A DNA stretch of 47,658 nt from an uncultured Spirochaetaceae bacterium. GTDB lineage: Bacteria > Spirochaetota > Spirochaetia > Sphaerochaetales > Sphaerochaetaceae. Within the stretch, counting starts at the first letter, position 1, and each line of letters opens with the position of its first letter. Below, in pieces: positions 13,205 to 27,319 of this stretch. A program made the position numbers and the translations under genes. The stretch is from positions 1-47,658 of the forward strand of contig OMYY01000020.1 in NCBI GenBank assembly GCA_900315435.1, given 5' to 3'. The notes under the pieces were generated by a model. The model saw only the letters and a list, made by a program, of their open reading frames with translations. It was not told the origin of the DNA and searched no databases.

Positions 13205-13313
13205 CAAGGGAAAACTTTTTCAGACGTTTGGGTGAGAAAAGTACGAGAAAACCATGTGGAAAGTGTGATTTTCCTGTGGAAAACCCTCCGCGGAATGATA
13301 CACTTGTCGTAAT

Positions 13314-15143
13314 ATGTCAAAAACAGCCCGGTTTTCGTCCAAGCGCCTGAAGAATGAACTGCACGAGGCTTTCACCACGCCCTACAACATCATGACGTTG
13401 GTGGCGATCGTCCTGTTGTCCTATCTGATTTTGTTCCCGCTGGTCGAGATGATCGCCAGTTCCTTCACGTTGGCAAAGGTAGATGTAAAGGCGGTAAAGG
13501 GCAGCCACGCCGGGCAATTCACGTTTTACTATTGGCAACGCATCTTCCACAGCATGATCGCCAAGAACATGTTCTACATCCCGCTGGCACATTCGCTGGT
13601 CATCGCGGGTTGCACCAGCATGCTGTGCATCGTCCTTGGCAGTTCCTTTGCCTGGTTGATGGTACGCAGCGATATCCCGCACAAGAAATTCTTCAGCCTG
13701 ATGCTGATCGTCCCCTACATGCTCCCCTCATGGGCCATCGCTCTTTCCTGGAACACCATTTTCCGGAATACACGCGTCGGCGGCACCCCGGGCTTCTTCG
13801 CCTATCTGGGAGTCCCTATTCCCGACTGGCTCAGCTACGGCGCGGTCCCCATCATCCTGGTGCTCTCGCTCCACTATTATTCGTATTCCTATCTGCTCGT
13901 TTCCGCCGCCTTGAAGTCCATCAACAGCGAGGTCGAGGAGATGGGCGAGCTCATCGGCGCGAGCAAGTGGCAGATCGTCAGGAAAATCACCCTGCCGCTC
14001 GTGCTTCCCGCCATTCTTTCGGCTCTGATCCTCACCTTCAGCAAGGCGATCGGCACCTACAGCGTTCCTTCCATGCTCGGCCTGAAAGTCAATTACTACA
14101 CGATCAGCACGATGATCCACAGCACGGTCAACAGCGCGCAGGCAGGCCTGGGCTTCTCCATCAGCCTGATGCTGATCTCCATCAGCGCCATCTTCATCTT
14201 CGTCAACCAGAAGGTAATCGGCCATCGCAAGAGTTACGTCACCATGAACGGCAAGGGTACCCGCAGCAACCCCATTCCACTGGGAAAGGCACGAACCCCC
14301 ATCCTGGTCCTGCTCCATCTCTTTGTCGCGCTCATGGTGGTCTTCCCGTTGGTGCTGATGTGCTACCAGACCTTGATGCTGAAGGTTGGCGACTATTCTT
14401 TACAGAACCTAACCCTCCACTACTGGCTGGGCAAGGGCCGCGGAGACATCTATGAGGGCCTCGACGGAATCCTGAGAGACCGCAAGTTCCTCAGTTTCCT
14501 GTGGAACACGCTGAAACTGGTTTTCCTGACCAGCATCTTCGCCAGCATCATCGGACAGCTGATCGGCTACATCAACGCCCGTGGCCGCAACTTGAAAAGC
14601 GGTCAGTTCGTCGAACAAGTGGCTTTCATTCCCTATCTGATTCCCTCGATCGCTTTTGGAGCCATGTACCTTTCCATGTTCTCCAAGGGTGTGAAAATCG
14701 GACCGCTCACGATTGTCCCGCCCCTGTACGGTTCTTTCGTCCTGCTGGTCCTGGTCAGCGTCGTCAAGCACCTGCCCTTCGCCAGCCGGAGCGGTACGGC
14801 ATGCATGCTGCAGATCGGTACCGACCTTGAAGAGGCCGGCCAGATTGCCGGGGCTTCGTTCGTCAAACGTTTCTCCCATATCGTATTTCCTCTCGCGAAA
14901 AATGGCTTCATGAGCGGATTCATGTTGATTTTCATCAGCATCATGAAGGAGCTGGACCTGATTGTCCTGCTGATGAGCCCCAAACAGGGAACCCTTTCCT
15001 ATTTGGCCTACTGGTATTCCACCGAGGGTTGGACCCAGCCATCCAACTGTATCGCCATCGTGATGTTCATCCTGGTCTTCCTCACGCACTGGCTCTCAAA
15101 TAAGTTGTTCAAGACCGATTTGGCTGGCGGACTGGGAGGTTGA
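13314..15143 (+). CDS. ABC transporter permease, fused two-domain FbpB/AfuB type
   Basis: A 609-residue permease with two tandem binding-protein-dependent transport domains, each of about six helices (roughly 25-300 and 325-600). EAA-type loops are EEMGELIGASKWQIVRKITL (near 205-224) and LEEAGQIAGASFVKRFSHI (near 505-523). Fused permeases of this sort belong to the iron(III)/2-aminoethylphosphonate/spermidine-related group. It is the first gene of a permease, ATPase, binding-protein operon; the ATPase ribosome site lies in its last codons. Iron(III) is the best guess from the full gene set. No Fur-type box was found upstream. Confidence 0.85.
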   Translation: MSKTARFSSKRLKNELHEAFTTPYNIMTLVAIVLLSYLILFPLVEMIASSFTLAKVDVKAVKGSHAGQFTFYYWQRIFHSMIAKNMFYIPLAHSLVIAGCTSMLCIVLGSSFAWLMVRSDIPHKKFFSLMLIVPYMLPSWAIALSWNTIFRNTRVGGTPGFFAYLGVPIPDWLSYGAVPIILVLSLHYYSYSYLLVSAALKSINSEVEEMGELIGASKWQIVRKITLPLVLPAILSALILTFSKAIGTYSVPSMLGLKVNYYTISTMIHSTVNSAQAGLGFSISLMLISISAIFIFVNQKVIGHRKSYVTMNGKGTRSNPIPLGKARTPILVLLHLFVALMVVFPLVLMCYQTLMLKVGDYSLQNLTLHYWLGKGRGDIYEGLDGILRDRKFLSFLWNTLKLVFLTSIFASIIGQLIGYINARGRNLKSGQFVEQVAFIPYLIPSIAFGAMYLSMFSKGVKIGPLTIVPPLYGSFVLLVLVSVVKHLPFASRSGTACMLQIGTDLEEAGQIAGASFVKRFSHIVFPLAKNGFMSGFMLIFISIMKELDLIVLLMSPKQGTLSYLAYWYSTEGWTQPSNCIAIVMFILVFLTHWLSNKLFKTDLAGGLGG

Positions 15144-15148
15144 GCGCC

Positions 15149-16258
15149 ATGAGTGAGATTCTACTGAACCACATCGACAAGTATTACGGAAACAATCATG
15201 TGTTGAAGGATGTCAACCTGACTGTCCAGGACGGAGATTTCCTTACCCTGCTCGGGCCCTCGGGCTGTGGCAAGACCACCATGCTCCGCATTTTGGCGGG
15301 ACTCGAGAAACCGCAACAGGGAACCATCACGATCGACGGCGAAAAGGTGGTCGACGCCAGCGAAGCCTTCTTTCTTCCCCCCTCGAAGCGAGGACTGAAC
15401 CTGGTCTTCCAGTCCTATGCCTTGTGGCCCCACATGACGGTGTATGACAACATCGCCTTCGTCCTCTCGGTGGCGAAAACCCCGAAGGAGCAGATTCCCG
15501 GCATGGTCCAGGAAGCACTGGAGAAGATGCAGATCGGCGAGTTCGCGAAACGCTATCCCAGCGAGCTTTCCGGAGGGCAACAACAGCGGGTTGCCATCGC
15601 GCGCTCGATCGTCAACCGCCCGAGACTGCTTTTACTGGACGAGCCACTGTCCAATCTGGACGCGAAGCTGCGCATCGACATGCGCGGAGAGCTGAAAAGG
15701 CTGCACAAGGACCTGGGCACCACGGTGGTCTACGTCACCCACGACCAGGTCGAGGCGCTTACCATGTCGACCCGGATCGCCGTCTTCTTCAAAGGGGTGC
15801 TGACCCAGGTGGATACTCCGGTCAACCTGTACCAGAACCCGGCGACCATGGAAGTGGCGGACTTCATCGGCAACCCGAAGATCAATTTCATCAAGGCGGA
15901 TGGGGAGGCTCAGGGACAGAGTCTGGTGACCGACAGCCCCTTGGGAAGACTGGTATTCGAGAAGCACTACCATGGCCCGCAGGGAACCGTCGACTGCACC
16001 CTTGGCATTCGTCCGGAGATGCTCCGCATAGATCCCTCTGGCCCGATCGAGGGCTCCGTCCTCTCCAGCCAGCCGGCGGGAAGCGAGAGCCTCATCCAAG
16101 TCCAGGTCAAGGGGCAGGTACTCCTGGTCAAGTGCATCGGACTGGCGACCTACAACCAAGGCGAAACGGTCCGCCTTTCCATCGACCCCGATTTCGTCAA
16201 TGTCTATGACACCAAGGAAGGTGTCCTGATCAAGCATTCCGCGGCTGCGCTACGCTGA
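15149..16258 (+). CDS. ABC transporter ATP-binding protein, FbpC/PotA type
   Basis: A 369-residue ATPase. The Walker A is [19 protein letters not shown] (near 33-51), the signature is [15 protein letters not shown], the Walker B is [16 protein letters not shown] and the switch His is in [11 protein letters not shown]-terminal TOBE-like regulatory domain covers roughly 270-369. The ATG at 15149 has GGGAGG nine bases upstream. A TTG at 15140 is less likely. It energises the importer encoded on both sides and is the only transport ATPase in the window. Whether it also serves the two sugar-type importers is unknown; those usually use an MsmX/UgpC-type ATPase. Confidence 0.9.
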
Positions 16259-16281
16259 CCGCCGGAGATAAGGAGGATTGC

Positions 16282-17484
16282 ATGAATAAACGATTGCTTG
16301 CGCTGACTACCCTGCTCGCCTTGGCCACGGGCCTGTTCGCAGGTGGAGCCAAAGAAGCCGCCCCTGCTGCCGCCGAGACGGGAACCGATACGGTCTCCGC
16401 CGAAGAGCAGTGGGCTATCGACAACGGTTTGTACGAAGACGAGACAATGGACGCATTGTACGAGAAGGCCAAGGCGGAGACAGGAAGCATGGTGGTCTAC
16501 ACCATCTCCAGCCGTACCGAAAAGGCCGCCAAGGAGTTCATGTCCGAATACCCTGGTTTGGACGTCACCGTCTACAACATCTCCAGCGACGAACTGAAGG
16601 AAAAGTTCCAGAGAGAGTACGAGGCAGGCATCGCGGGAGCTGACCTGATCCACTCCAAGGAGGTGCTCGGAGACTACAAGGTCGATTTCTTCGACACCGG
16701 CATTCTCCACAACTACATGCCCGATTCCATCTACGGGAACGTGAACAAGCGCTTCAAGTCGATGACCCCATTCATCATCGAAGCCCTGACCTGGTTCTAC
16801 AACACCGAAAGCGGCAAGCCGCTGAAGAACTGGTGGGAGCTGACCGATCCGAAGAACAAGGGCAAGTTCGTCCTGCAGGACGCCGCAGACAATACCGCAT
16901 ACCTTGCGGTCTACACGCTGTTCACCCAGCACCCCGAGGACATGGCCAAGGCCTACAAGGACTACTACGGCAAGGATATCGTCCTGGACAAGGACGAGCC
17001 CAACGCCGGATTCGCCTTCATCAAACGCATGGAAGCCAACAGCCCGATCAACGCAGACCGCAGCGACGAGGTGGTCCAGCTGGTCGGAACCAAAGGCCAG
17101 GCAGACCCTCCGGTCGGCTACGCATCTTCCGTCAAAGTCCGCAAGGGAGAAGAGAACAACTGGGCCCTCGCCTATAATCAGGATGTCGAGCCTTCCAGCG
17201 GCATGTACGTGCTGAACTTCTTCGGCATCGTCAATGGGTGCAAACACCCCAACATCGCGAAGATGTTCATCCGCTATCTGATGGGCGGCGACGACGGCAA
17301 AGGCAAGGGATACACCCGCTTCGGGACGACTGGTACCTGGTCTGTCAGACCTGAGTGCCCGCCCTCGAAAGGCAACGCCCCGCTCGACGAAGCGCTCTCC
17401 AAATACTACACCCCGGACTACAACTACATTTACGAGCACTACATTGAAGTCCGCGACTACTATATCGCCCATCTGAAGAGATAA
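16282..17484 (+). CDS. ABC transporter solute-binding protein, FbpA-like (iron type)
   Basis: A 400-residue exported binding protein. The signal peptide ends at GLFAGGAKEAAP without a lipobox cysteine. The mature part opens with a linker, then SMVVYTISSRTEKAAKEF, the first strand-helix of FbpA/AfuA-like proteins. It continues with LTWFYNTESGKPLKNWWELT and two consecutive tyrosines near the C-terminal region of the kind used in ferric-ion binding. Phosphonate- and phosphoglycerate-type relatives share the fold, so iron is probable rather than certain. A GGAGG site lies 24 bases after the ATPase stop. A strong hairpin follows the gene. Confidence 0.82.
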   Translation: MNKRLLALTTLLALATGLFAGGAKEAAPAAAETGTDTVSAEEQWAIDNGLYEDETMDALYEKAKAETGSMVVYTISSRTEKAAKEFMSEYPGLDVTVYNISSDELKEKFQREYEAGIAGADLIHSKEVLGDYKVDFFDTGILHNYMPDSIYGNVNKRFKSMTPFIIEALTWFYNTESGKPLKNWWELTDPKNKGKFVLQDAADNTAYLAVYTLFTQHPEDMAKAYKDYYGKDIVLDKDEPNAGFAFIKRMEANSPINADRSDEVVQLVGTKGQADPPVGYASSVKVRKGEENNWALAYNQDVEPSSGMYVLNFFGIVNGCKHPNIAKMFIRYLMGGDDGKGKGYTRFGTTGTWSVRPECPPSKGNAPLDEALSKYYTPDYNYIYEHYIEVRDYYIAHLKR

Positions 17485-17497
17485 TGGAGCGAGAAAA

Positions 17498-17538
17498 CCA
17501 CTGACGGGACTGTCTGCATCCAGGCAGTCCCGTTGTGG
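17498..17538. terminator. Convergent hairpin terminator
   Basis: The stem ACGGGACTGTCTG (17504-17516) and CAGGCAGTCCCGT (17521-17533) makes 13 pairs with one wobble and a four-base CATC loop; flanking CCAC/GTGG extends it. It lies between the binding-protein gene and the convergent MBL gene. T content downstream is modest on both strands, with TTTTC on the minus side, so it may end both transcripts. Confidence 0.65.
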
Positions 17539-17573: not shown

Positions 17574-18260
17574 CTAGCAGGAGGCTACCGAGAAGCCTTT
17601 CGCGCGCAAAAGGCCGATAGCTTCCCGATCGGGAAGATGGACGGCGTAATACCGCTTTCGCTCTTCAAAAGGAATCTTCTCTTCCATTCGCCCGAGATAC
17701 CCATGAGCAGAAGAGGCTTTGGTCGTGGTATCCTGATAAACTCTTTTAATCTCGCCTTTCAGAAAGGCCGCCAGCACGGCATCCGGGATATCGGCGGCGT
17801 CGCCACTTACATAGAAGCCCAAATCCCGAAACCAGTACCCGTAACACTGCATATCGGATGCATGAGCAACATGGTAAGGCTCAATGGATAGACACCAATC
17901 CGCAGGCACTTGGTCGTACAATCGATAGAACGAACGGTCGATACCCACAATATCCAGGAACGAGCGAAGCCTTACGAGATCAGGATAGTAGATTTCCACT
18001 TGTTGATGGGACACAAGCGCGGCGTATGAGCAAAGAGTTCCCAAACTCCCCACATGGTCACAATGTGTGTGTGTAATCACTACAAGGATGCGGCGAGCTT
18101 CTGTAAATGCTTCAATAGTAAGCAATTTCTCGAAGACGGATTCTCCGCAATCAATCAGGACAAAATTTTTGTTCCAGAGGAACCACATACTGGTGTTTCC
18201 CAGCTCTGGGGCAAAAGCTCCCCCTATCCCAAGAAAATGAATTGCTGTCAAATTGTTCAT
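17574..18260 (-). CDS. MBL-fold metallohydrolase (RNase Z-like branch)
   Basis: A 228-residue cytoplasmic MBL protein with FLGIGGAFAPELGNTSMW at the start, the metal motif VVITHTHCDHVGSLGTL (near 62-78), later PYHVAHASDMQCYGYWF, YVSGDAADIPD and a final HLPD. It lacks a signal peptide. Its start overlaps the permease stop (ATGA), so it is co-translated with the transporter. Relatives include RNase Z-like and other hydrolases. The substrate is unknown, but linkage suggests processing of the imported compound. It is not closely similar to the secreted MBL protein ending at 989. Confidence 0.8.
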   Translation of the reverse strand: MNNLTAIHFLGIGGAFAPELGNTSMWFLWNKNFVLIDCGESVFEKLLTIEAFTEARRILVVITHTHCDHVGSLGTLCSYAALVSHQQVEIYYPDLVRLRSFLDIVGIDRSFYRLYDQVPADWCLSIEPYHVAHASDMQCYGYWFRDLGFYVSGDAADIPDAVLAAFLKGEIKRVYQDTTTKASSAHGYLGRMEEKIPFEERKRYYAVHLPDREAIGLLRAKGFSVASC

Positions 18261-19072
18261 TTGATCCCCGAGGAGACGAAGCTCTCAATAAACTGTCTCT
18301 GAAAGACAAGGAAAAGAACGACAAGCGGTGCGCTGATGATGAAGGTGGCGGCACAGACGTTGGTCCATTGCAAGACAGCCTCCTTGCTCTTCGCGAACAA
18401 GGCCAAACCGACTGTGAGGGTCCGATTCTCGACCGAGTTGGTGACAACGAGCGGCCACAAGAAATTGTTCCAATGGTAGCTCACGGAAACCAACGCGAAG
18501 GAAATGTATGCGGTCTTCGCATTCGGAACGAACACATGACGGATTACCTGGGCGGTGTTGCATCCATCGATGATGGCTGCGTCTGTCAAAGCGCGAGGAA
18601 TCGTCTTGAAATGCTGGCGAAGCAGGAAAGTGCCCATCGCAGAACCAAGAAACGGCAACATGATGGCGAGCTTCGTATCCGTCAATCCGAGATCGGATAT
18701 CGTCATGAAATTCGGAATAATCAGGATATCGTTGGGAATGATGATTTGCACGAAGATAATCAGGAATACCAGCTTCTCCCCTTTGAAATGAAGCGTCGCG
18801 AGGGCATACGCCGCCATGGTGATGGTGACGAATTGAATCGCGTACGTGCAGACGACGATGGTGATTGTGTTCAGGTAATACCGTCCGAAGGGAACCTGTC
18901 CCCAGACGTAGGCAATATTGCCAAAGGTCCAGCCTGTGTGTGGAAACACTTGCATGACAAAGGAGGCCTTGGTGAAAGCGGTAAGCACCATCCAAATCAG
19001 TGGAACCAGCCACAAGAAAGCGACAATGCCACCCAAAAGATAAAACGCAACATGAAACTTCTTCCGTGCCAT
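18257..19072 (-). CDS. Sugar-type ABC transporter permease, MalG/UgpE group
   Basis: A 271-residue permease with six predicted helices. The EAA loop is TDAAIIDGCNTAQVIRHV. The C-terminus FQRQFIESFVSSGIK is typical of CUT1 second permeases. ATG at 19072 is preceded by AAGGGGTGA. The gene starts 10 bases after the first permease's stop and overlaps the MBL gene by 4. Substrate is not determinable; no linked glycosidase or kinase is present. Confidence 0.88.
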   Translation of the reverse strand: MARKKFHVAFYLLGGIVAFLWLVPLIWMVLTAFTKASFVMQVFPHTGWTFGNIAYVWGQVPFGRYYLNTITIVVCTYAIQFVTITMAAYALATLHFKGEKLVFLIIFVQIIIPNDILIIPNFMTISDLGLTDTKLAIMLPFLGSAMGTFLLRQHFKTIPRALTDAAIIDGCNTAQVIRHVFVPNAKTAYISFALVSVSYHWNNFLWPLVVTNSVENRTLTVGLALFAKSKEAVLQWTNVCAATFIISAPLVVLFLVFQRQFIESFVSSGIK

Positions 19073-19082
19073 ACGTCACCCC

Positions 19083-19982
19083 TTAATTGTAGTAGATGCG
19101 CTTGTCACTGTTGAGGAATTGTCCCATAGAGATGACGAGCATGATGAGAAGCATGACGACCGTGAGTGTCGCAGCTTTGGCTTGGTCGAAGAAAATGAAA
19201 CCCTGTTGGTAGATATAGTAGAGCAACAACGTGCTGGCGTTATTTGGCGCACCCTCAGTCATGATGACAATGTGGTCGACCAGCTTCAGGCTGTCGGTCA
19301 AAGCAGTAATCGAGACAAACAGCGTGGTCGGGGCAAGCAAGGGAAAGGTGATGGACCGGAATGTCCGGGTGGGAGAAGCGCCATCAAGAAGCGCCGCCTC
19401 GAAAAGTTCGTGGTCAAGATTCTGCAAACCGGAAAGGAAGAAAATCATCAGGTAGCCAGCTTCCCTCCACACGTACATCGCAGCCATGGCGGGCAATACG
19501 TATTTTTTGTTGGAGAGCACTCCGAGCGGCTTTCCTCCGCATTTCATGAGCAATTGGTCGAACATGCCTGTTTCCGGCATGTACATGAACAGCCAGATGG
19601 AAGCAATCGCAATCATCGGCATCACGACCGGATAGAAGAAACTTGTCCGGAACAGGCCAATACCTCTGCGGTACTTCTTGTTCACGAACATGGCGAACGC
19701 CAAACCAAGCACAAAGGCTGGAACCACCGTCAGGATTGAAAAATAAAGCGTGTTGCGCATAATCTTCCAAAATAGGGCGTTGGTAGCAAAATATGTGTAG
19801 TTCTCTAACCCGATGAACTGGGGTGTACGCATGCCAAGTTCGAAAGCGGTGAAGCTCAAGCCAACACTTCGGATGATCGGCCAAATAGTGAACAACACCA
19901 TAAAGAACAGAGTTGGAGCAAGCAGAAGCCACGCAAGCAACGTTTGGTTCATCTGCCGCCTTGATGTACGTTTGAAAAACAT
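19083..19982 (-). CDS. Sugar-type ABC transporter permease, MalF/UgpA group
   Basis: A 299-residue permease with six helices and the EAA loop ELFEAALLDGASPTRTFRSI. It has the QTLLAWLLLAPTLFFMVLFT opening helix of CUT1 first permeases. An AGAGGT ribosome site precedes ATG 19982. It is separated from the binding-protein gene by a strong hairpin at 20005-20038. It forms the channel with the next gene. Confidence 0.88.
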   Translation of the reverse strand: MFFKRTSRRQMNQTLLAWLLLAPTLFFMVLFTIWPIIRSVGLSFTAFELGMRTPQFIGLENYTYFATNALFWKIMRNTLYFSILTVVPAFVLGLAFAMFVNKKYRRGIGLFRTSFFYPVVMPMIAIASIWLFMYMPETGMFDQLLMKCGGKPLGVLSNKKYVLPAMAAMYVWREAGYLMIFFLSGLQNLDHELFEAALLDGASPTRTFRSITFPLLAPTTLFVSITALTDSLKLVDHIVIMTEGAPNNASTLLLYYIYQQGFIFFDQAKAATLTVVMLLIMLVISMGQFLNSDKRIYYN

Positions 19983-20004
19983 TCGATACCTCTTGAGATT
20001 TCAC

Positions 20005-20038
20005 AAAGTGGGTGGCACCAAAAAGAGCCACCCACTTT
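20005..20038 (-). repeat. Intercistronic hairpin between binding protein and permease
   Basis: AAAGTGGGTGGC (20005-20016) and its perfect complement (20027-20038) form a 12-bp stem with a 10-base A/T-rich loop. On the minus strand the stem is followed by TTTGTGAAATC, only a weak T run. The position, just after the binding-protein stop and before the first permease, matches the hairpin at 4528-4557 in the other importer. A partial terminator or mRNA stabiliser is the likely role. Confidence 0.75.
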
Positions 20039-20052
20039 CATCCGACAACGTC

Positions 20053-21381
20053 TTACTTGAATTTCTTCAACGTGTCATCGGCCTCTTTCTGAGCGTCTTT
20101 CAAAGCTTGGGCAGGAGTCTTCTCCCCCGTGATGGCAGCCTGAATCGCATCGTTCAGAATGCGCCACATCTTGGTGGAGTCGTAGCTTGTAAGTTCCGGT
20201 TTGCTGATGGGAATCTGCTCGTATGCGACTTTTGCCTGCGGAAGATTCTCGTAGTACGCCTTCATCTGCGGCAATTCCAACGCAGACTTGCGGGTCACCA
20301 CATAACCGGTGTCGATACTCCATTGGGCAGTTCGCTCGGCAGTGGTTGCGAACTTGATGAACTCCCATGCCTTCTGCTGGCGTTCTTTCGAGATTCCCTT
20401 GGAGATATAGAAGTTGCCGCCACCAGTTGGAGCTGCCATACGCTTGTTGCCTGGCAGGAAGCAGGTACCGAAATCGAAGGAAGCATTCTTGCTGATGTTG
20501 CCAAGGTTGCCGGTGGTATGGTAGATCATCGCCACCTTGCCCGAGAGGAATTGGCCAGGAAGATCGGTCCATTGGACAATACCAGGTTGCATGCATTTGT
20601 ACTTGTTCTGGAGATCGCACCAGAATTGCAATGCCTCCACGTTTTCCGGCGTATCGAAGTAAATCGACTTGCCATCATCGCTCATCAGGTTCTCTCCGTT
20701 CTTGGAATTTTGCAAGCAGAAGCCCGTGAACTGCCACTGTGCGGAGCCGCTGTTCAGGGCGATGCCCACGCCGTAGCGCTCAACGTTGCCGTCAGCTCCG
20801 ACTTTTGTCAGCTTCTGCGCGTAGTCGGCAAGCTCCGCCCAAGATTTTGGCGGTTGCTCCGGATCCAAGCCCACCTCCCGGAACGCATCCTTGTTGTAGA
20901 ACATGATTTCGGTGCTTCTCTGGAAAGGAATACTGATGATGTGGCCATCTACATAAGAATCCTCCATGAATCCGGAAAGGAAATCGTCGATGTATGCCTT
21001 GCCCTCAGCTCCATCCGCCGCAATGAAATCATCCAAGGGAACCACCGCGTCTTGCACGTACATGGAAAAGCGTTGGGTAGCCAAGGAAATGAAGAGATCT
21101 GGAGGGTTCTTTCCTTGAATCGAACTCTGGATTTTGACAACCGTATCGTCATAGTTGCCGGTATAGACCGGTTTCACAGTCGCTTCCGGGTGTTCCGCGT
21201 TCCAATCGTTGCAAATCTTATCAACGTACTTGGTTACCGCACCTCCGACATTCACCGGGAAGAAGAAAGTCAACTCCATAGGCTTGTTCTTCGCCGAAGT
21301 TGCTTCTGACGAACCATTCGCAAACACCGATGAAACCGCTAAACATAGCAAGAACATGCTTGCAAGTAGTTTTTTCCTCAT
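20053..21381 (-). CDS. Sugar-type ABC transporter solute-binding protein
   Basis: A 442-residue family 1 solute-binding protein. The signal peptide (MRKKLLASMFLLCLAVSSVF) ends near Ala-Asn-Gly, with no lipobox. Mature features include the MELTFFFPVNVGG opening, a late RMAAPTGGGNFYISKG, and QKAWEFIKFATTAERTAQWS followed by TGYVVTRKSA, the family C-terminal signature. A GAGGAGA site lies six bases before ATG 21381. It is first in its operon, under the promoter with tandem LacI operators. Its fold is the same as the C-terminal half of the regulator encoded just upstream. Confidence 0.9.
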   Translation of the reverse strand: MRKKLLASMFLLCLAVSSVFANGSSEATSAKNKPMELTFFFPVNVGGAVTKYVDKICNDWNAEHPEATVKPVYTGNYDDTVVKIQSSIQGKNPPDLFISLATQRFSMYVQDAVVPLDDFIAADGAEGKAYIDDFLSGFMEDSYVDGHIISIPFQRSTEIMFYNKDAFREVGLDPEQPPKSWAELADYAQKLTKVGADGNVERYGVGIALNSGSAQWQFTGFCLQNSKNGENLMSDDGKSIYFDTPENVEALQFWCDLQNKYKCMQPGIVQWTDLPGQFLSGKVAMIYHTTGNLGNISKNASFDFGTCFLPGNKRMAAPTGGGNFYISKGISKERQQKAWEFIKFATTAERTAQWSIDTGYVVTRKSALELPQMKAYYENLPQAKVAYEQIPISKPELTSYDSTKMWRILNDAIQAAITGEKTPAQALKDAQKEADDTLKKFK

Positions 21382-21415: not shown

Positions 21416-21443
21416 ATTATATCTTCAATTTGAAACGTGTCAA
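21416..21443 (-). promoter_or_regulatory. Consensus promoter of the second ABC operon
   Basis: On the minus strand a perfect TTGACA (21438-21443) and a perfect TATAAT (21416-21421) are separated by 16 bases. This would be a very strong promoter if unregulated. The -35 lies inside an operator, so repression by competition is expected. Transcription would start near 21409, leaving a short leader before the binding-protein gene. Confidence 0.85.
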
Positions 21444-21455
21444 TGAAACGTTTCA
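21431..21455. promoter_or_regulatory. Tandem LacI-type operators
   Basis: TGAAACGTGTCA (21431-21442) and the perfect palindrome TGAAACGTTTCA (21444-21455) lie side by side with one base between. Both have the CG-centred symmetry of LacI/GalR operators. The first covers the -35 hexamer. The neighbouring LacI-SBP fusion gene is the obvious source of the binding protein. Two adjacent sites suggest two dimers on nearly the same face, or a choice between sites. Confidence 0.82.
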
Positions 21456-21532
21456 ATCTTTGAGCGCGAAAGAAGAACACCATTCCTCGCTTCAAAGAAG
21501 CAGGACTTCAGAACCTCTTGATAAACAGAGAC

Positions 21533-23716
21533 TTACAGATTGGTGAACTCCTCAGTATGGGCAAGATAGTACCGTTGCAATTCTTCCAAGGCGGTAGCAG
21601 GGTCCTTTCCTTGGTACCAACAGGCGCGGACTTCTTTCCCGATGAGAGAAAGAAGTCTGTGGTCGTTGAACGGCCTGCTGGGATGAGAAGGCGTCCGGTA
21701 GGCGTGATAGGAGAAGATACCTTCCTTGACCAAAGGCATCCAAGGATATGTGTCAATCACCTCGTAGTTCGTAAGCGTCTCACGCACAATCGGGTTGCCT
21801 CCGAACATAGCCAGGCTGGATGCAACCGGCTCTCGTACAATCCAGGAAATGAACTGGAGCGCAGCCTCCGGATAGCGGCATTGGTTCTGGACGCCGAGAG
21901 CCCCCCCTCCAAACAAGGGATTTGCCCCTGGAATCGCGGAAAACCCAACCCTGTTCGACACCAAGTTGCTGAACGAGGGAACAAAATTGGTGAACACCAT
22001 GGTCATTGCCACTTGCCCTGAGGCAAAAAGGTGGGCGGCTTCGTTCCACCATGTCACCGGTGTCCCACAACTCTCCTTCTCTGCGAGGAGATCGACAAGC
22101 GCCTGTCTCGCAATTGGGCTGTCGAGTCTCGGCTCCCCCCCCTTCTGGAAAAGGTAATCCGTATAGCTGAAATAGCGGGTCAGAAACTCCGTGCCAGCAA
22201 GAATCGGCTCTCCTTCTTCGCCAAGGCCTACCGTGGAGCCGTAAGGTACCGGAGACATAGGATTGATGGTCCGGGTGAAAAACCGAGAAATCCTGTGGAA
22301 CTGAGCCATATCGGTAGGCACTTCCAGCTTCTCGCAGTTTTGCTCCTGGTACAACGCCCGGTAGGTTGGATTCTCAAACAGGTCTTTCCGATAGAACAAC
22401 AGTTGGATTGATGGGGAGGTAGGAACCGCATACCTTCGTCCATCGGCAATCGAGTGAGTTCTCTCCAGACCGTCAATCAAGTTGCCGAACACCCCGGAAA
22501 CATCAAAATCAATTGTATCAAGCGGCTTGAAAATCCTCATGCCATCCCAACTAAGCATATCCGCTCCGACACGGAGGATATCGTATTGCCCGGTCTCCTC
22601 CGGAGAGGCGAGCACCCGGTTGATTTCCTTGTAACCCGCAATAACCACATTGATAGCAATGTTGGTGGCGCAGGAGTACATATGGGCAAGCCGCTTTACC
22701 GCATATGCGGGTGGACTGTCCAGCAGAAGCATGGAAATCCGCTCCGGGCTCTTGGAACGCAAGGGACCAATCGAGCTTCGCCAGTGACGGAATCCAGCAT
22801 TCGACAAGATGATGGAACTTTCGGTCTGTTCCTGCACGTTCCGGATGACTTGCTCGGCTGCCCGATGTCCAAGACACCGGTAGTCAAGCTCGTACTTGGT
22901 GAAATCCTTCTCAGGAATCGTGTAGAGCGAGGATAAAGTGAAAAAGTGGGGATGCAGGTCAGGATAAAACCCCTTCTGAAGGTCCCGACACGCCTGGGCA
23001 ATGCCCATTCGGGTCGTCACGATATGGTCTGGGGCATCTCCATCAAACAGGCCTAGCAACTGGAACTTCTTTCCGTAAGGAGTGATAGAATAGGTTGTCA
23101 CCCGCATGGATTCAGGAACCGCGCCGAACAAACCATGCGCGAATTCCGTGTCATTGGTCGCCAACTCCTCGACCACAAGCGCCACACGCTTCGCCCCACT
23201 GCCACGTAGCTGCAAGCCCATGTCGGCACCAGCTTTCTCATAGTCGAACCCGATAAAACCTGACCCGCCTTTCCGCTCAACGAAAAGGATGTTGTGGGTG
23301 TCGAACCCAAGAGTCCGATAGATGATGCCCGCATCCTGTCCGAGGGAGGTGAAAGACACAATCCCTACAACAACCAGTGAACGGAACTGTCGGATGAGTT
23401 CTCTCTCCAGATCAGGATTATCCTGCGAATAGGCAACAAACGCCTCATACCCCATTACCCTCGCTTGGTTTGAGAACGAGGTGACAAAGTCAATGTACTG
23501 GATATCGGTATTGTTGGGAACAATCACGGCAATTGTCTTGCTCTGTCCTTTGCGAAGGAGCTTCGCATTCTCGTTGATGGCATAGCCGAGTTGCCGTGCG
23601 GCATCCTGGACAAGCAAGATCTTGCCGCTACTGACGTTTCCTTTCCCGTTCAATACGTTGGAAACAGTCCCTTGAGAGACTCCAGCAAGTTTCGCGATAT
23701 CCTTGATTGTCGCCAT
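21533..23716 (-). CDS. LacI-type regulator fused to a full solute-binding-protein domain
   Basis: A 727-residue protein with three parts. Residues 1-55 are a LacI helix-turn-helix (ATIKDIAKLAGVSQGTVSNV). Residues 58-318 are a LacI type I sensor (TIAVIVPNNTDIQYIDFV; SIILSNAGF). Residues about 326-727 are a complete family 1 ABC solute-binding domain without signal peptide (ILRVGADMLSWDGMRIFKPL; AAHLFASGQVAMTMVF; EAALQFISWIVREP; a final helix EELQRYYLAHTEE). It should be cytoplasmic. It lies directly upstream of the importer it likely controls through the tandem operators. The start is taken at 23716, because the frame upstream to 23839 precedes the HTH and lacks a site. Two ligand pockets in one repressor is unusual. 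Confidence 0.9.
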   Translation of the reverse strand: MATIKDIAKLAGVSQGTVSNVLNGKGNVSSGKILLVQDAARQLGYAINENAKLLRKGQSKTIAVIVPNNTDIQYIDFVTSFSNQARVMGYEAFVAYSQDNPDLERELIRQFRSLVVVGIVSFTSLGQDAGIIYRTLGFDTHNILFVERKGGSGFIGFDYEKAGADMGLQLRGSGAKRVALVVEELATNDTEFAHGLFGAVPESMRVTTYSITPYGKKFQLLGLFDGDAPDHIVTTRMGIAQACRDLQKGFYPDLHPHFFTLSSLYTIPEKDFTKYELDYRCLGHRAAEQVIRNVQEQTESSIILSNAGFRHWRSSIGPLRSKSPERISMLLLDSPPAYAVKRLAHMYSCATNIAINVVIAGYKEINRVLASPEETGQYDILRVGADMLSWDGMRIFKPLDTIDFDVSGVFGNLIDGLERTHSIADGRRYAVPTSPSIQLLFYRKDLFENPTYRALYQEQNCEKLEVPTDMAQFHRISRFFTRTINPMSPVPYGSTVGLGEEGEPILAGTEFLTRYFSYTDYLFQKGGEPRLDSPIARQALVDLLAEKESCGTPVTWWNEAAHLFASGQVAMTMVFTNFVPSFSNLVSNRVGFSAIPGANPLFGGGALGVQNQCRYPEAALQFISWIVREPVASSLAMFGGNPIVRETLTNYEVIDTYPWMPLVKEGIFSYHAYRTPSHPSRPFNDHRLLSLIGKEVRACWYQGKDPATALEELQRYYLAHTEEFTNL

Positions 23717-23777: not shown

Positions 23778-24314
23778 TCAACCCCTAGTCGGAACGAGCA
23801 CCAACTCGTACATGCCATACGGGTAGCTCTTGCGGTCACACAGACGGCGCATCACCGTCTCGCAGAAGCGGAACCCGCTCTGGGCTACCAGATGCTGCAG
23901 GGGGATGTCGCTTTTCAGGACGTCGTAGCGCAGCACCTTGATTCCCTGCCGATGGACCCGGCGGGCTGCTTGGACCAAGAGTTCCCGTCCCTGCCCCAAC
24001 GATTGGTACTTGGGGAGGATGGCCAGACAATGGATGATGCCGACATGCGCTTCATCCATCGCCAATGACCAATGGACCTGCCTGAACTCCGGGTGAGGCT
24101 CGTGGTTGATGACTACCGAACCGACCAGCTCGTCATTCCAGAAGCCGACGAACAACTGTCCGTGGGCAATCGAATGCTCCAGAAACGCAGTCTGCACTGG
24201 CTCCATCAGGCATTCCGGTTTACAGAGCAGCAGATGGCTGTCTTTTTCCACCGTCTGGTACAAACGGACCACCGAATCAAGGTCCTCGGTCCGCGCCAAC
24301 CGTATCGTGAACAT
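23778..24314 (-). CDS. GNAT-family N-acetyltransferase
   Basis: A 178-residue GCN5-related acetyltransferase. FTIRLARTEDLDSVVRLYQT opens the fold. The acetyl-CoA region is IIHCLAILPKYQSLGQGREL near 95-114 (Q-x-x-G-x-G type), with a C-terminal strand LVAQSGFRFCE. The substrate is unknown. ATG 24314 overlaps the stop of the Crp/Fnr gene by one base and has GGAGG eight bases upstream. A GTG at 24317 is an alternative. It is co-transcribed with the regulator, and its relation to nitrosative stress, if any, is unclear. Confidence 0.85.
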   Translation of the reverse strand: MFTIRLARTEDLDSVVRLYQTVEKDSHLLLCKPECLMEPVQTAFLEHSIAHGQLFVGFWNDELVGSVVINHEPHPEFRQVHWSLAMDEAHVGIIHCLAILPKYQSLGQGRELLVQAARRVHRQGIKVLRYDVLKSDIPLQHLVAQSGFRFCETVMRRLCDRKSYPYGMYELVLVPTRG

Positions 24315-24985
24315 CACTCCACCTCCAACAGATGGAAGTGCTGCTTGTCGAACGTCAGCATCCCCTCGTCGCGCAGTTTCCCCAGACAGGCGCTCATGGC
24401 GCTTCGCTCCACTCCAAGATAGTCGGCAAGTTCCTGCCGGTTGAAGGGAATGTCAAAGACCGCGCTATGGGCCTTCCTCGATTCCATCGAAAGGTAGGAG
24501 AGCAATTTGTCCCGGGTGGTACGCTGGCCCATGTGGGTCACCTTCTCATTGAAACGGATGTTCTTGTTGGAAAGCACATGGATCAGGTTGGCGACCAAAG
24601 TGCGCCACACCTTCTCGTCCAGCGAACCTTGCTGGAGCAGGCGGTGGCAGTCCAACCAATAGACGACACAGCCGCTGTCCGCGACCACGTTGACCGCAAG
24701 CGGCCGTTGGGGCCGACTACAGGCAAACGACTCGGCAAAAATCAGCCCCGCGGAGATACGTCCCATCAAATTCCGGTTTCCCCAGAAATCGTTCTGTTCT
24801 ATGAAAATGGTACCATCGACGACAATACCGAACTTGTCGGTCCGCTCCCCTTCCCGCAGCAACACCTCGCCTCTCGCATAGCGTGCCAGCTGGGCGCCTT
24901 GGGCTTCCAGGATGAGGGAAATGGTATGCTCGTCGAATCCCATGAAGAGCGGAGCGCGCGCCAATATGGAAAGAAAATCTGCCAT
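24314..24985 (-). CDS. Crp/Fnr-family regulator (HcpR-like)
   Basis: A 223-residue regulator with an N-terminal cyclic-nucleotide-binding fold (LLREGERTDKFGIVVDGTIF near 42-61) and a C-terminal winged helix (FNRQELADYLGVERSAMSAC near 180-199). The four-cysteine iron-sulfur set of FNR is not present at the N-terminus. This leaves nitric-oxide sensing through haem, as in HcpR-type proteins, as a possibility. It is divergent from the ferredoxin-hcp operon and has AAAGGA before ATG 24985. A palindromic site lies in the shared intergenic region. Confidence 0.88.
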   Translation of the reverse strand: MADFLSILARAPLFMGFDEHTISLILEAQGAQLARYARGEVLLREGERTDKFGIVVDGTIFIEQNDFWGNRNLMGRISAGLIFAESFACSRPQRPLAVNVVADSGCVVYWLDCHRLLQQGSLDEKVWRTLVANLIHVLSNKNIRFNEKVTHMGQRTTRDKLLSYLSMESRKAHSAVFDIPFNRQELADYLGVERSAMSACLGKLRDEGMLTFDKQHFHLLEVE

Positions 24986-24995
24986 TTTTATCCTT

Positions 24996-25011
24996 TGTTG
25001 GTTTTCCAACA
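24996..25011. promoter_or_regulatory. Palindromic Crp/Fnr-type operator between regulator and hcp operon
   Basis: TGTTGG-TTTT-CCAACA is a perfect 6+6 inverted repeat with a four-base spacer, the geometry of an FNR-class site. It is centred at 25003.5. A GATAGT -10-like hexamer at 25028-25033 would place the hcp operon start near 25041, about 37-41 bases from the centre, the distance used for class II activation. It also overlaps the leader of the regulator gene, allowing autoregulation. Confidence 0.6.
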
Positions 25012-25068
25012 GCATTTCAGTCCCAAGGATAGTAGACTCGGCGGTGTACGTAAAGAGGGAGCTAGGAT

Positions 25069-25695
25069 ATGAGAAGAACGATTGTCTCCATCAATCAGGA
25101 ACTTTGCAATGGTTGCGGCGCCTGCGCCAGCGCCTGCCACGAAAACGCCATCGAGATGGGTTCAGATGGCAAGGCGCATCTGACGAGCGACCACTACTGC
25201 GACGGCATGGGCGATTGCCTTCCTGCCTGCCCCACTGGCGCCATCACCATCACTGTCCGCGAGGCGGAAGCCTATGACGAAGAGGCGGTCAAGGCGCACA
25301 AGCGCCAGATGGTTCCGGCAACAAGCGAACTCGCCCAGTGGCCGGTGCAGATAAAGCTGATGCAGCCGAACAACCCGGCCCTGCAGGGGGCTGACCTTCT
25401 TGTCGCCGCCACCTGCACCCCCTTTGCCTATCCTACGTTCCACCAGGACTTCATCAAGGGACATGCGGTCCTGGTCGGATGTCCGAAGCTGGACGACGAG
25501 GATTACAGCCTGAAGCTGGGCGCCATCCTCAAGGCGAATGACATCAGGAGCATCTCTCTGGTGCGCATGGAGGTTCCCTGCTGTGGGGGCATGACCTATT
25601 TCCTCCAGAAGGCGATCGCCCTGAGCGGCAAGCCTCTTTCTCTCAGAGTCATCACGATTTCCACCGAAGGCAAGGTGCTTTCGGACGAGCAATAA
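25069..25695 (+). CDS. Two-cluster 4Fe-4S ferredoxin-like protein of the hcp operon
   Basis: A 208-residue protein with two [4Fe-4S] motifs: CNGCGACASACHENAIE (near 13-29) and CDGMGDCLPACPTGAI (near 44-59). A C-terminal domain of unknown fold follows, with CTPFAYPTFH, LVGCPKLDDEDY and VPCCGGMTYFLQKA, the last possibly binding another metal. Proteins of this layout are regularly encoded beside hybrid-cluster protein and likely donate its electrons. It starts with GGAGCTAGG upstream of ATG 25069 and precedes hcp by 28 bases. Confidence 0.88.
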   Translation: MRRTIVSINQELCNGCGACASACHENAIEMGSDGKAHLTSDHYCDGMGDCLPACPTGAITITVREAEAYDEEAVKAHKRQMVPATSELAQWPVQIKLMQPNNPALQGADLLVAATCTPFAYPTFHQDFIKGHAVLVGCPKLDDEDYSLKLGAILKANDIRSISLVRMEVPCCGGMTYFLQKAIALSGKPLSLRVITISTEGKVLSDEQ

Positions 25696-25723
25696 CGAAA
25701 ACCAAAACAAGGAGAACTACAAC

Positions 25724-27319
25724 ATGGATACAGCGATGTTTTGTTACCAGTGCGAGCAGACGGCCCTTTGCAAGGGTTGCACGAAGAGCGGCGTATGCGG
25801 CAAGAAGCCAGAGGTCGCAGGCCTGCAGGACAAACTGATTGGAGCCCTCGTCGGACTCTCCAGAGCCCTGAGCGGCAACTCCCCGGACAAGACCACCAGC
25901 AAGCTGATGCTTGAGGGTCTGTTCATGACCATCACCAACGCCAACTTCGATGGCGAGGCGATCGAGAAGATGATCGAGCTGGTCCACCAGGACAAAGTCC
26001 GCATCGGTGGCGAGGACTGCGGTACTTGCGGCACCAAGTGTGGCAGAATGGACGACTACAATCTGGAGAAACTCTGGGACGACAACGAGGACATCCGCTC
26101 CTTGAAGAGCCTGATCCTGTTCGGCATCAAGGGCATGGCGGCCTACGCCTACCACGCGTTGATGCTGGGACTCGAGGACGAGGATGTCAACAAGTTCTTT
26201 GCCGAAGCGCTCTTTGCCATCGGGGAAGACTACGGCCAGGACACCCTGCTTCCCCTCGTGCTGAAGGTCGGCGAGGTCAACCTGAAGTGCATGGCCCTGC
26301 TGGACAAGGCGAACACCTCCACCTATGGGAACCCTGTCCCGGTCACTGTGCCCCTGACTATCGAGAAGGGTCCCTTCATCGTGGTCACCGGCCATGACCT
26401 GAAGGACCTCGAGCTGCTTCTGAAGCAGACTGAGGGCAAGGGCATCAACATCTATACCCATGGAGAGATGCTGCCGGCCCATGGCTATCCGCTCTTGAAG
26501 AAATACCCCCACCTGAAAGGCAATTTCGGAACCGCTTGGCAGAACCAGCAGAAGGAGTTCGACAACATTCCCGCTCCAATCCTTTTCACCACCAACTGCC
26601 TGATGCCGCCAAGGGCAAGCTACAGCGACCGCGTCTTCACCACGGAAGTAGTCGGGTTCCCCGGAGAGGTCCATATCGGCCCTGAGAAGGATTTCACCCC
26701 GGTGATCCGGAAAGCTCTGGAACTGGGCGGCTATCCGGAAGACCACAAGATGACGGGAATCAACGGAGGTTCCACGGTGATGACCGGCTTCAGCCACAGC
26801 TTCATCCTGCAGAACGCCCCTGCGGTCGTCGAGGCTGTCAAAGCTGGCAAGATCAGCCACTTCTTCCTTGTTGCCGGTTGTGATGGCGCGAAGCCGGGAC
26901 GCAACTACTACACCGAGTTCGTCAAGCAGACCCCGAAGGATTCCATCGTCCTGACCTTGGCCTGCGGCAAATACCGGTTCAACGACCTGGATCTGGGTAC
27001 TGTCGCCGGACTTCCCCGCTTGATGGACATGGGCCAGTGCAACGATGCCTATGGCGCCGTACAGGTGGCCGTCGCCTTGAGCAAGGCCTTCGGCTGCAGT
27101 GTCAACGAGCTTCCGCTCTCCTTCATCATCTCCTGGTACGAGCAGAAAGCCGTCTGTGTCCTGCTTACCCTGTTGTACCTGGGCATCAAGCATATCAAGC
27201 TCGGACCTAGTCTTCCCGCCTTCCTTTCGAAGAACGTGCTGGACTATCTGGTGAAGCACTATCAGATCGCCCCGATCACCACCCCAGAGGAAGACCTCAA
27301 GGAGTGCCTGCATGCATGA
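25724..27319 (+). CDS. hcp: Hybrid-cluster protein (hydroxylamine / NO reductase)
   Basis: A 531-residue Hcp. The N-terminal cysteine motif FCYQCEQTALCKGCTKSGVC (residues 6-25) binds the cubane cluster. Hybrid-cluster ligands appear around EDCGTCGTKCGRMDD, TTNCLMPP, VAGCDGAKPG and LACGKYRFND. It reduces nitric oxide or hydroxylamine in the cytoplasm during nitrosative stress. AAGGAG lies eight bases before the ATG. It overlaps the DUF488 gene by 8 bases and is probably under the adjacent Crp/Fnr regulator. Confidence 0.96.
   Translation: MDTAMFCYQCEQTALCKGCTKSGVCGKKPEVAGLQDKLIGALVGLSRALSGNSPDKTTSKLMLEGLFMTITNANFDGEAIEKMIELVHQDKVRIGGEDCGTCGTKCGRMDDYNLEKLWDDNEDIRSLKSLILFGIKGMAAYAYHALMLGLEDEDVNKFFAEALFAIGEDYGQDTLLPLVLKVGEVNLKCMALLDKANTSTYGNPVPVTVPLTIEKGPFIVVTGHDLKDLELLLKQTEGKGINIYTHGEMLPAHGYPLLKKYPHLKGNFGTAWQNQQKEFDNIPAPILFTTNCLMPPRASYSDRVFTTEVVGFPGEVHIGPEKDFTPVIRKALELGGYPEDHKMTGINGGSTVMTGFSHSFILQNAPAVVEAVKAGKISHFFLVAGCDGAKPGRNYYTEFVKQTPKDSIVLTLACGKYRFNDLDLGTVAGLPRLMDMGQCNDAYGAVQVAVALSKAFGCSVNELPLSFIISWYEQKAVCVLLTLLYLGIKHIKLGPSLPAFLSKNVLDYLVKHYQIAPITTPEEDLKECLHA

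Follow-up and report, generated by a model that had tools for sequence, protein, structure and literature searches.

LacI-type regulators fused to a solute-binding domain: a cross-phylum family with a predicted operator on the -35 box and a putative role in phosphodiester sensing

In Bacillus subtilis, Btr (YbbB) is an AraC-type activator with a FeuA-like domain, a solute-binding protein (SBP) of the iron-siderophore type. The E. coli protein SgrR and DsvR, its homologue in Vibrio cholerae, are one-component regulators with a cytoplasmic C-terminal solute-binding domain (PMC13060122). The window analysed here, a stretch of 47,658 nucleotides from an uncultured Spirochaetaceae bacterium, encodes a member of a family of one-component regulators of the kind known from SgrR, with a captured solute-binding domain that is joined in this case to a LacI-type regulator. 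A full-text literature search, which covered subscription papers in part, returned no prior description of the LacI–SBP architecture, and the family appears to be widespread and without earlier description.

The regulator gene lies on the minus strand and runs from a start codon at 23716 to a stop at 21533–21535 with no internal stops. An alternative upstream GTG would give a protein of 768 residues, but in the alignment the initial Met of the relatives coincides with the ATG at 23716. The gene and its domains are as follows.

21533 to 23716, minus strand: regulator gene, LacI–SBP fusion, 727 residues (open frame, Pfam, relatives)
23546 to 23716, minus strand: LacI helix-turn-helix (HTH) and hinge helix, residues 1–57 (PF00356, 47.6 bits)
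22727 to 23545, minus strand: type I (LacI/periplasmic-binding) core, residues 58–330 (profile match to LacI structures)
21536 to 22726, minus strand: cytoplasmic CUT1-type solute-binding domain, residues 331–727 (PF13416, 53 bits; profile match to 5iai)

Pfam places the N-terminal LacI HTH at residues 3–46 (cut-off 27) and SBP_bac_8 at residues 344–650 (cut-off 27), and the match to Peripla_BP_1 at residues 60–180 stays below threshold (13 bits against 22.2); the type I core that follows the hinge is recognised by family profile, Pfam alone being insufficient. A profile of six family members matches LacI-type crystal structures over residues ~2–319 (E 1e-37 to 1e-42) and CUT1 SBP structures over residues 346–727 (E 3e-34), and a profile of the C-terminal domain from the window-like clade A (see below) covers positions 5–387 of the 393 in PDB 5iai (E 3e-33). 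Judged by homology, the family 1 / CUT1 fold is complete over ~380 residues and retains the general SBP motifs (GG loop, F..G..AM); the hinge residues A51 and L54 are kept in clades A and B, and the HTH residues are likewise conserved. Folds were assigned by sequence profiles because both AlphaFold2 models, a single-sequence run of the full regulator (pLDDT 33) and a run of the SBP domain with one relative (pLDDT 35), were unusable. A preliminary description of this DNA had proposed an uninterrupted fusion with a boundary near residues 318–320 and an SBP fold thereafter. The open frame, Pfam and structure-profile matches bear out the fusion, the domain search finds the SBP fold both as PF13416 above cut-off and as CUT1 structure matches, and the boundary was right to within ~15 residues. 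A frame or sequencing artefact joining two separate genes, which would have undone that proposal, is excluded by the identical layout in 47 other full-length relatives. The N-terminus is a DNA-binding domain, rather than the signal peptide by which a binding protein would be exported to deliver solute to a permease, and the importer is served by a separate SBP.

Including the window copy, we found 48 full-length LacI–SBP fusions, all with the same layout. The source genome itself holds a second full-length copy (C42:63015-65183), and the suggested search for this architecture in other genomes turned it up elsewhere in the Spirochaetota, in Clostridia, on 48 E. coli plasmid records and in Proteus and Rhizobium. 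It is present in 34 of 397 sampled genomes (~9%) of the family of Candidatus Enterocloster and in 9 of 391 sampled genomes of its class, and a 6-kb segment that spans the plasmid copy and the genes around it is at least 80% present in 46 of 5,426 E. coli genomes. NCBI's name for the copies from E. coli and Rhizobium is ‘extracellular solute-binding protein’, a label that hides a transcription factor family of gut Clostridia, spirochaetes and E. coli plasmids. Two matches (L152, L153; MT836780.1, MT837991.1) come from unverified faecal records labelled ‘Bacteriophage sp.’, where the fusion is found with a GDPD or a phosphonate-type SBP. They are probably mislabelled bacterial DNA, and we rejected a phage origin of the fusion given the importer or GDPD genes on these contigs.

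The fused domain had been proposed to be a copy of the neighbouring importer's own receptor. This idea fails in a tree of 80 SBP sequences, where all 48 fused domains form one clade with a support of 1.0, the sole other tip inside it being a truncated version of the window's own regulator, and where the importer's protein (20053–21381) is placed separately, outside that clade, with the SBPs of loci L013, L072 and L073. Over 307 residues, the fused domain of the window and the neighbouring SBP share 21% identity. As the fused domains are one clade far from that receptor, a duplication of it is ruled out. The importer SBPs of L072 and L073 are 80–81% identical to the window's while the L072 regulator is only 29% identical, and therefore regulator and importer must either have undergone exchange or have diverged separately. 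Within the fusion, the two halves co-evolve (r = 0.92 over 1,128 pairs, uncorrected for shared ancestry), which fits a single fusion event. The window regulator thus has what unites this unnamed LacI–SBP family: HTH, core and CUT1-type SBP, with the SBP in one clade.

The importer beside the regulator (18257–21381, minus strand) does have its own binding protein, as had been stated. These genes lie downstream of the regulator on the same strand.

20053 to 21381, minus strand: the importer's own UgpB-like SBP, 442 residues (PF13416, 156 bits; UgpB 4aq4, E 4.5e-48)
19083 to 19982, minus strand: Ugp-type ABC permease, UgpA-like (PF00528; best NCBIfam match UgpA, E 6.3e-37)
18257 to 19072, minus strand: Ugp-type ABC permease, UgpE-like (PF00528; best NCBIfam match UgpE, E 1.6e-35)
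17574 to 18260, minus strand: MBL-fold hydrolase (RNase Z / cyclic phosphodiesterase-like) with the metal motif HTHCDH (PF12706, 31.7 bits; motif)

No ATPase gene occurs in this SBP–permease–permease–MBL array, and MBL relatives of the window's hydrolase also adjoin other fusion regulators. A second importer, of the phosphonate-type class, lies at 13311–17484 on the plus strand (double permease, ATPase at 15140–16258, SBP at 16282–17484) and converges on the MBL gene, with a hairpin at ~17508–17533 that resembles a shared terminator. On the other side, at 24314–27319, a Crp-like regulator is divergent from genes for a protein resembling ferredoxin and one resembling the hybrid cluster protein (Hcp), possibly a nitrosative-stress unit.

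A tree of the 48 full-length proteins separates a window-like clade A (n=21) from the remainder, which we call clade B (n=27), the division being made by eye on a midpoint-rooted tree. A GDPD and/or an HxHxDH MBL hydrolase lies within ~8 kb of the regulator at 18 of 21 clade-A loci and at none of the 27 clade-B loci, these counts being lower bounds, since some genes escape both the greedy ORF picking and tblastn. A phosphodiesterase (GDPD or MBL) is the constant partner of clade-A regulators, and the importers beside them are of three unrelated types: a Ugp-type ABC (the window, L013, L072, L073, L079, L086, L087 and others), a phosphonate-type ABC with SBP, ATPase and double permease (the window's own paralogue L016, and L017, L075, L080, L081, L084, L085, L093) and a nucleoside-symporter MFS. 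Some close relatives adjoin importers with a different SBP type or without any SBP. In E. coli and Proteus the context is an MFS protein of the nucleoside H+ symporter type, accompanied by MgtC and an MBL enzyme; on the E. coli plasmid (L070:5848-11175) the regulator, encoded at L070:9001-11175, is divergent from an operon of a PhnP-like MBL gene, a nucleoside-permease-like MFS and MgtC. These neighbours rule out an Eit-type iron system, which we had considered for E. coli. Genes of the MgtC/SapB family recur beside clade-A regulators (L013, L070, L071, L079, L080, L081, L084–L087). Many clade-B members lie near an ABC ATPase of ~500 residues, which we read, judging from its size, as belonging to a CUT2 sugar importer.

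One congener record (L014) lacks 5.25 kb, so that window position 23135 is joined to 17886 (L014:8580-8585) at a 3-bp CAT repeat, with loss of the regulator from residue 195 on, of the importer and of the beginning of the MBL gene. That the regulator's sensor half, importer and part of the MBL gene went together is expected if they form one unit, though the gap could also be an assembly error of this metagenome-assembled genome.

Five loci (the window, L013, L016, L017, L080) first revealed palindromes centred on CG, upstream of importer or GDPD genes. The window has two such predicted operators, which abut at 21430–21456; operator 1 overlaps the promoter of the importer genes, an arrangement typical of the LacI/GalR family.

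21443 to 21456, minus strand: operator 2, TTGAAACGTTTCAT, abutting operator 1 (motif scans)
21430 to 21443, minus strand: operator 1, TTGACACGTTTCAA, its first six bases being the -35 box (motif scans)
21416 to 21421, minus strand: -10 box TATAAT, 16 bp from the -35 box in operator 1 (sequence, spacing)

Among the 21 clade-A loci the pattern TTGAMACGTKTCAA has 5 exact and 8 one-mismatch sites, compared to 0.1 expected for both together, and at up to one mismatch there are none in the 27 clade-B loci. When read in the direction of the target gene, nearly all predicted sites start with TTGACA and are followed at 16–17 bp by a TATAAT-like box, and the shared operator TTGACACGTNYCAA thus overlays a consensus -35 upstream of importer or phosphodiesterase genes. 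Exact TTGACACGTNYCAA is found 15 times in 16 genomes, in all 15 cases at fusion-regulator loci, a count that is not fully independent because the motif was refined on some of those loci; its reversed control has no match in the same genomes. For these ~61 Mb (summed from rounded sizes), we estimate that three to four exact sites would arise by chance with uniform bases. Independent sites are those at loci beyond the first five and on contig L152, which was not used in deriving the motif and has an exact site immediately before a GDPD gene that is transcribed divergently. On the E. coli plasmid the predicted operator TTGACACGTTCCAA lies at the MBL promoter (L070:8726). The motif scan gave no recognisable operator in L074 and L075, its sole match in L071 is inside the regulator gene, and in the window none was found before the regulator gene itself. 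An operator-like site with an altered core, TTGAAACGGATCAA, lies away from both fusion loci of the source genome (G000:C44:99891-99904) and is probably due to chance. The recurrence across phyla of an operator overlapping the promoter supports the proposal that the adjacent importer is controlled from within the cytoplasm by a LacI-type regulator whose sensor is an SBP, and the predicted operator makes the regulon of the family readable from sequence.

Which of the two ligand-binding folds would sense the solute is indicated by their conservation. Three hallmarks of the LacI core, the R of R..G[FY], the D of ND..A and the D of G[FY]D, which we take to be effector contacts in LacI and PurR, are present in 11, 11 and 8 of 13 standalone LacI proteins and in 0, 0 and 1 of the 48 fusions, so that the canonical effector-contact residues of the LacI/GalR family are gone from practically all members. 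Mean pairwise identity within clade A is 0.664 for the HTH, 0.343 for the SBP and 0.243 for the core, which is the least conserved segment, and all 120 clade-A pairs show higher conservation in the SBP than in the core. These results weaken the dual-input control put forward in the preliminary description, in which the core binds a second ligand, the SBP binds the imported solute and expression needs both. That both domains are kept and co-evolve in 48 of 48 members, and that the core still matches LacI structures by profile, speaks for it; however, the lost effector contacts and the lower conservation of the core make it unlikely, and the gene neighbourhood suggests one substrate pathway. The core is probably no longer a sensor, though it could still bind an unusual ligand despite the lost contacts.

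The residues of the SBP domain give a different picture. All clade-A proteins have R382, E458, W557 and N577, positions at which clade B mostly has other residues, and R382 is seen in 0 of 27 clade-B proteins and in 1 of 31 standalone SBPs; an invariant arginine here would suit an anionic ligand. Two residues further on, position 384 is Asp in 47 of 48 fusions (the 20 other clade-A proteins and 27/27 in clade B) and Gly in the window regulator. In our alignment this Asp corresponds to what is presumably a ligand-contacting residue of the trehalose/maltose-binding protein. The Gly, together with the divergence of the window domain from the importer's SBP, speaks for a domain that has become an oligomerisation or protein-docking module and binds no solute, with regulation by some other signal. 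We find this slightly less credible again than dual input, since the domain is complete with its SBP motifs and the four clade-specific residues track the gene neighbourhood, as those of a ligand pocket would.

The account that we consider the most probable, with reasonable though far from full confidence, is a one-component repressor in the cytoplasm that detects an imported phosphodiester through its SBP domain and thereupon leaves the promoter. As long as ligand is absent, a dimer of the LacI type would sit on the palindrome that includes the -35 box of the importer or phosphodiesterase promoter and block RNA polymerase. Once solute enters the cell the SBP domain would close on it, the LacI core, now mainly a scaffold for dimerisation and relay, would change shape, and the DNA would be released and the operon transcribed; the phosphodiesterase would in turn degrade the inducer and reset the switch. 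A ligand-dependent activator or a co-repressed regulator is very improbable, for although LacI-family members working with a co-repressor exist (PurR), an operator on a near-consensus -35 followed by a near-consensus -10 marks a strong promoter suited to blocking and needing no help, and co-repression would hardly be expected of an importer whose neighbour is a degradative phosphodiesterase.

For this inducible repressor, the ligand in the window-like clade is probably a phosphodiester or a related organophosphate, as suggested by the gene neighbours and the one clade-specific residue set. The genes around these regulators suggest that phosphodiesters are taken up and broken down by gut bacteria, and they offer a candidate class of ligands for importers and MBL/GDPD enzymes that are as yet uncharacterised. 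The broader evolutionary reading is evenly balanced in our view: a type II transport receptor would have been captured once in a LacI repressor and have taken over sensing, leaving the type I core as a scaffold, and the resulting family would reach across phyla, one of its clades being specialised in sensing phosphodiesters, with an operator conserved on the -35 box and a pairing with unrelated importers.

Compared to known systems, the window importer is closest to UgpB/A/E and is followed by a putative phosphodiesterase, as in the Ugp system, but its array has no ATPase gene, an MBL-fold enzyme in place of GDPD, and a LacI–SBP regulator. With LacI/GalR repressors such as LacI, PurR, CcpA and RbsR the fusion shares the HTH and hinge helix, the predicted central-CG palindromic operator and the type I core; unlike them it has ~400 extra residues of type II SBP (~730 residues compared to their ~340) and a core without the usual effector-contact residues. 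Btr resembles the fusion in that an intracellular SBP-like domain reports the solute of the adjacent importer, and differs in its AraC HTH, its iron-siderophore-type SBP and its action as an activator. SgrR and DsvR have SBP_bac_5, no LacI core and other neighbouring genes, whereas the window regulator has no Pfam match to SBP_bac_5, its SBP being of the SBP_bac_8/SBP_bac_1 type; like them, it is a one-component regulator with a cytoplasmic C-terminal solute-binding domain. The family also provides a natural example of a sensor swap, in which a repressor with a sensor of its own was joined to a transport receptor.
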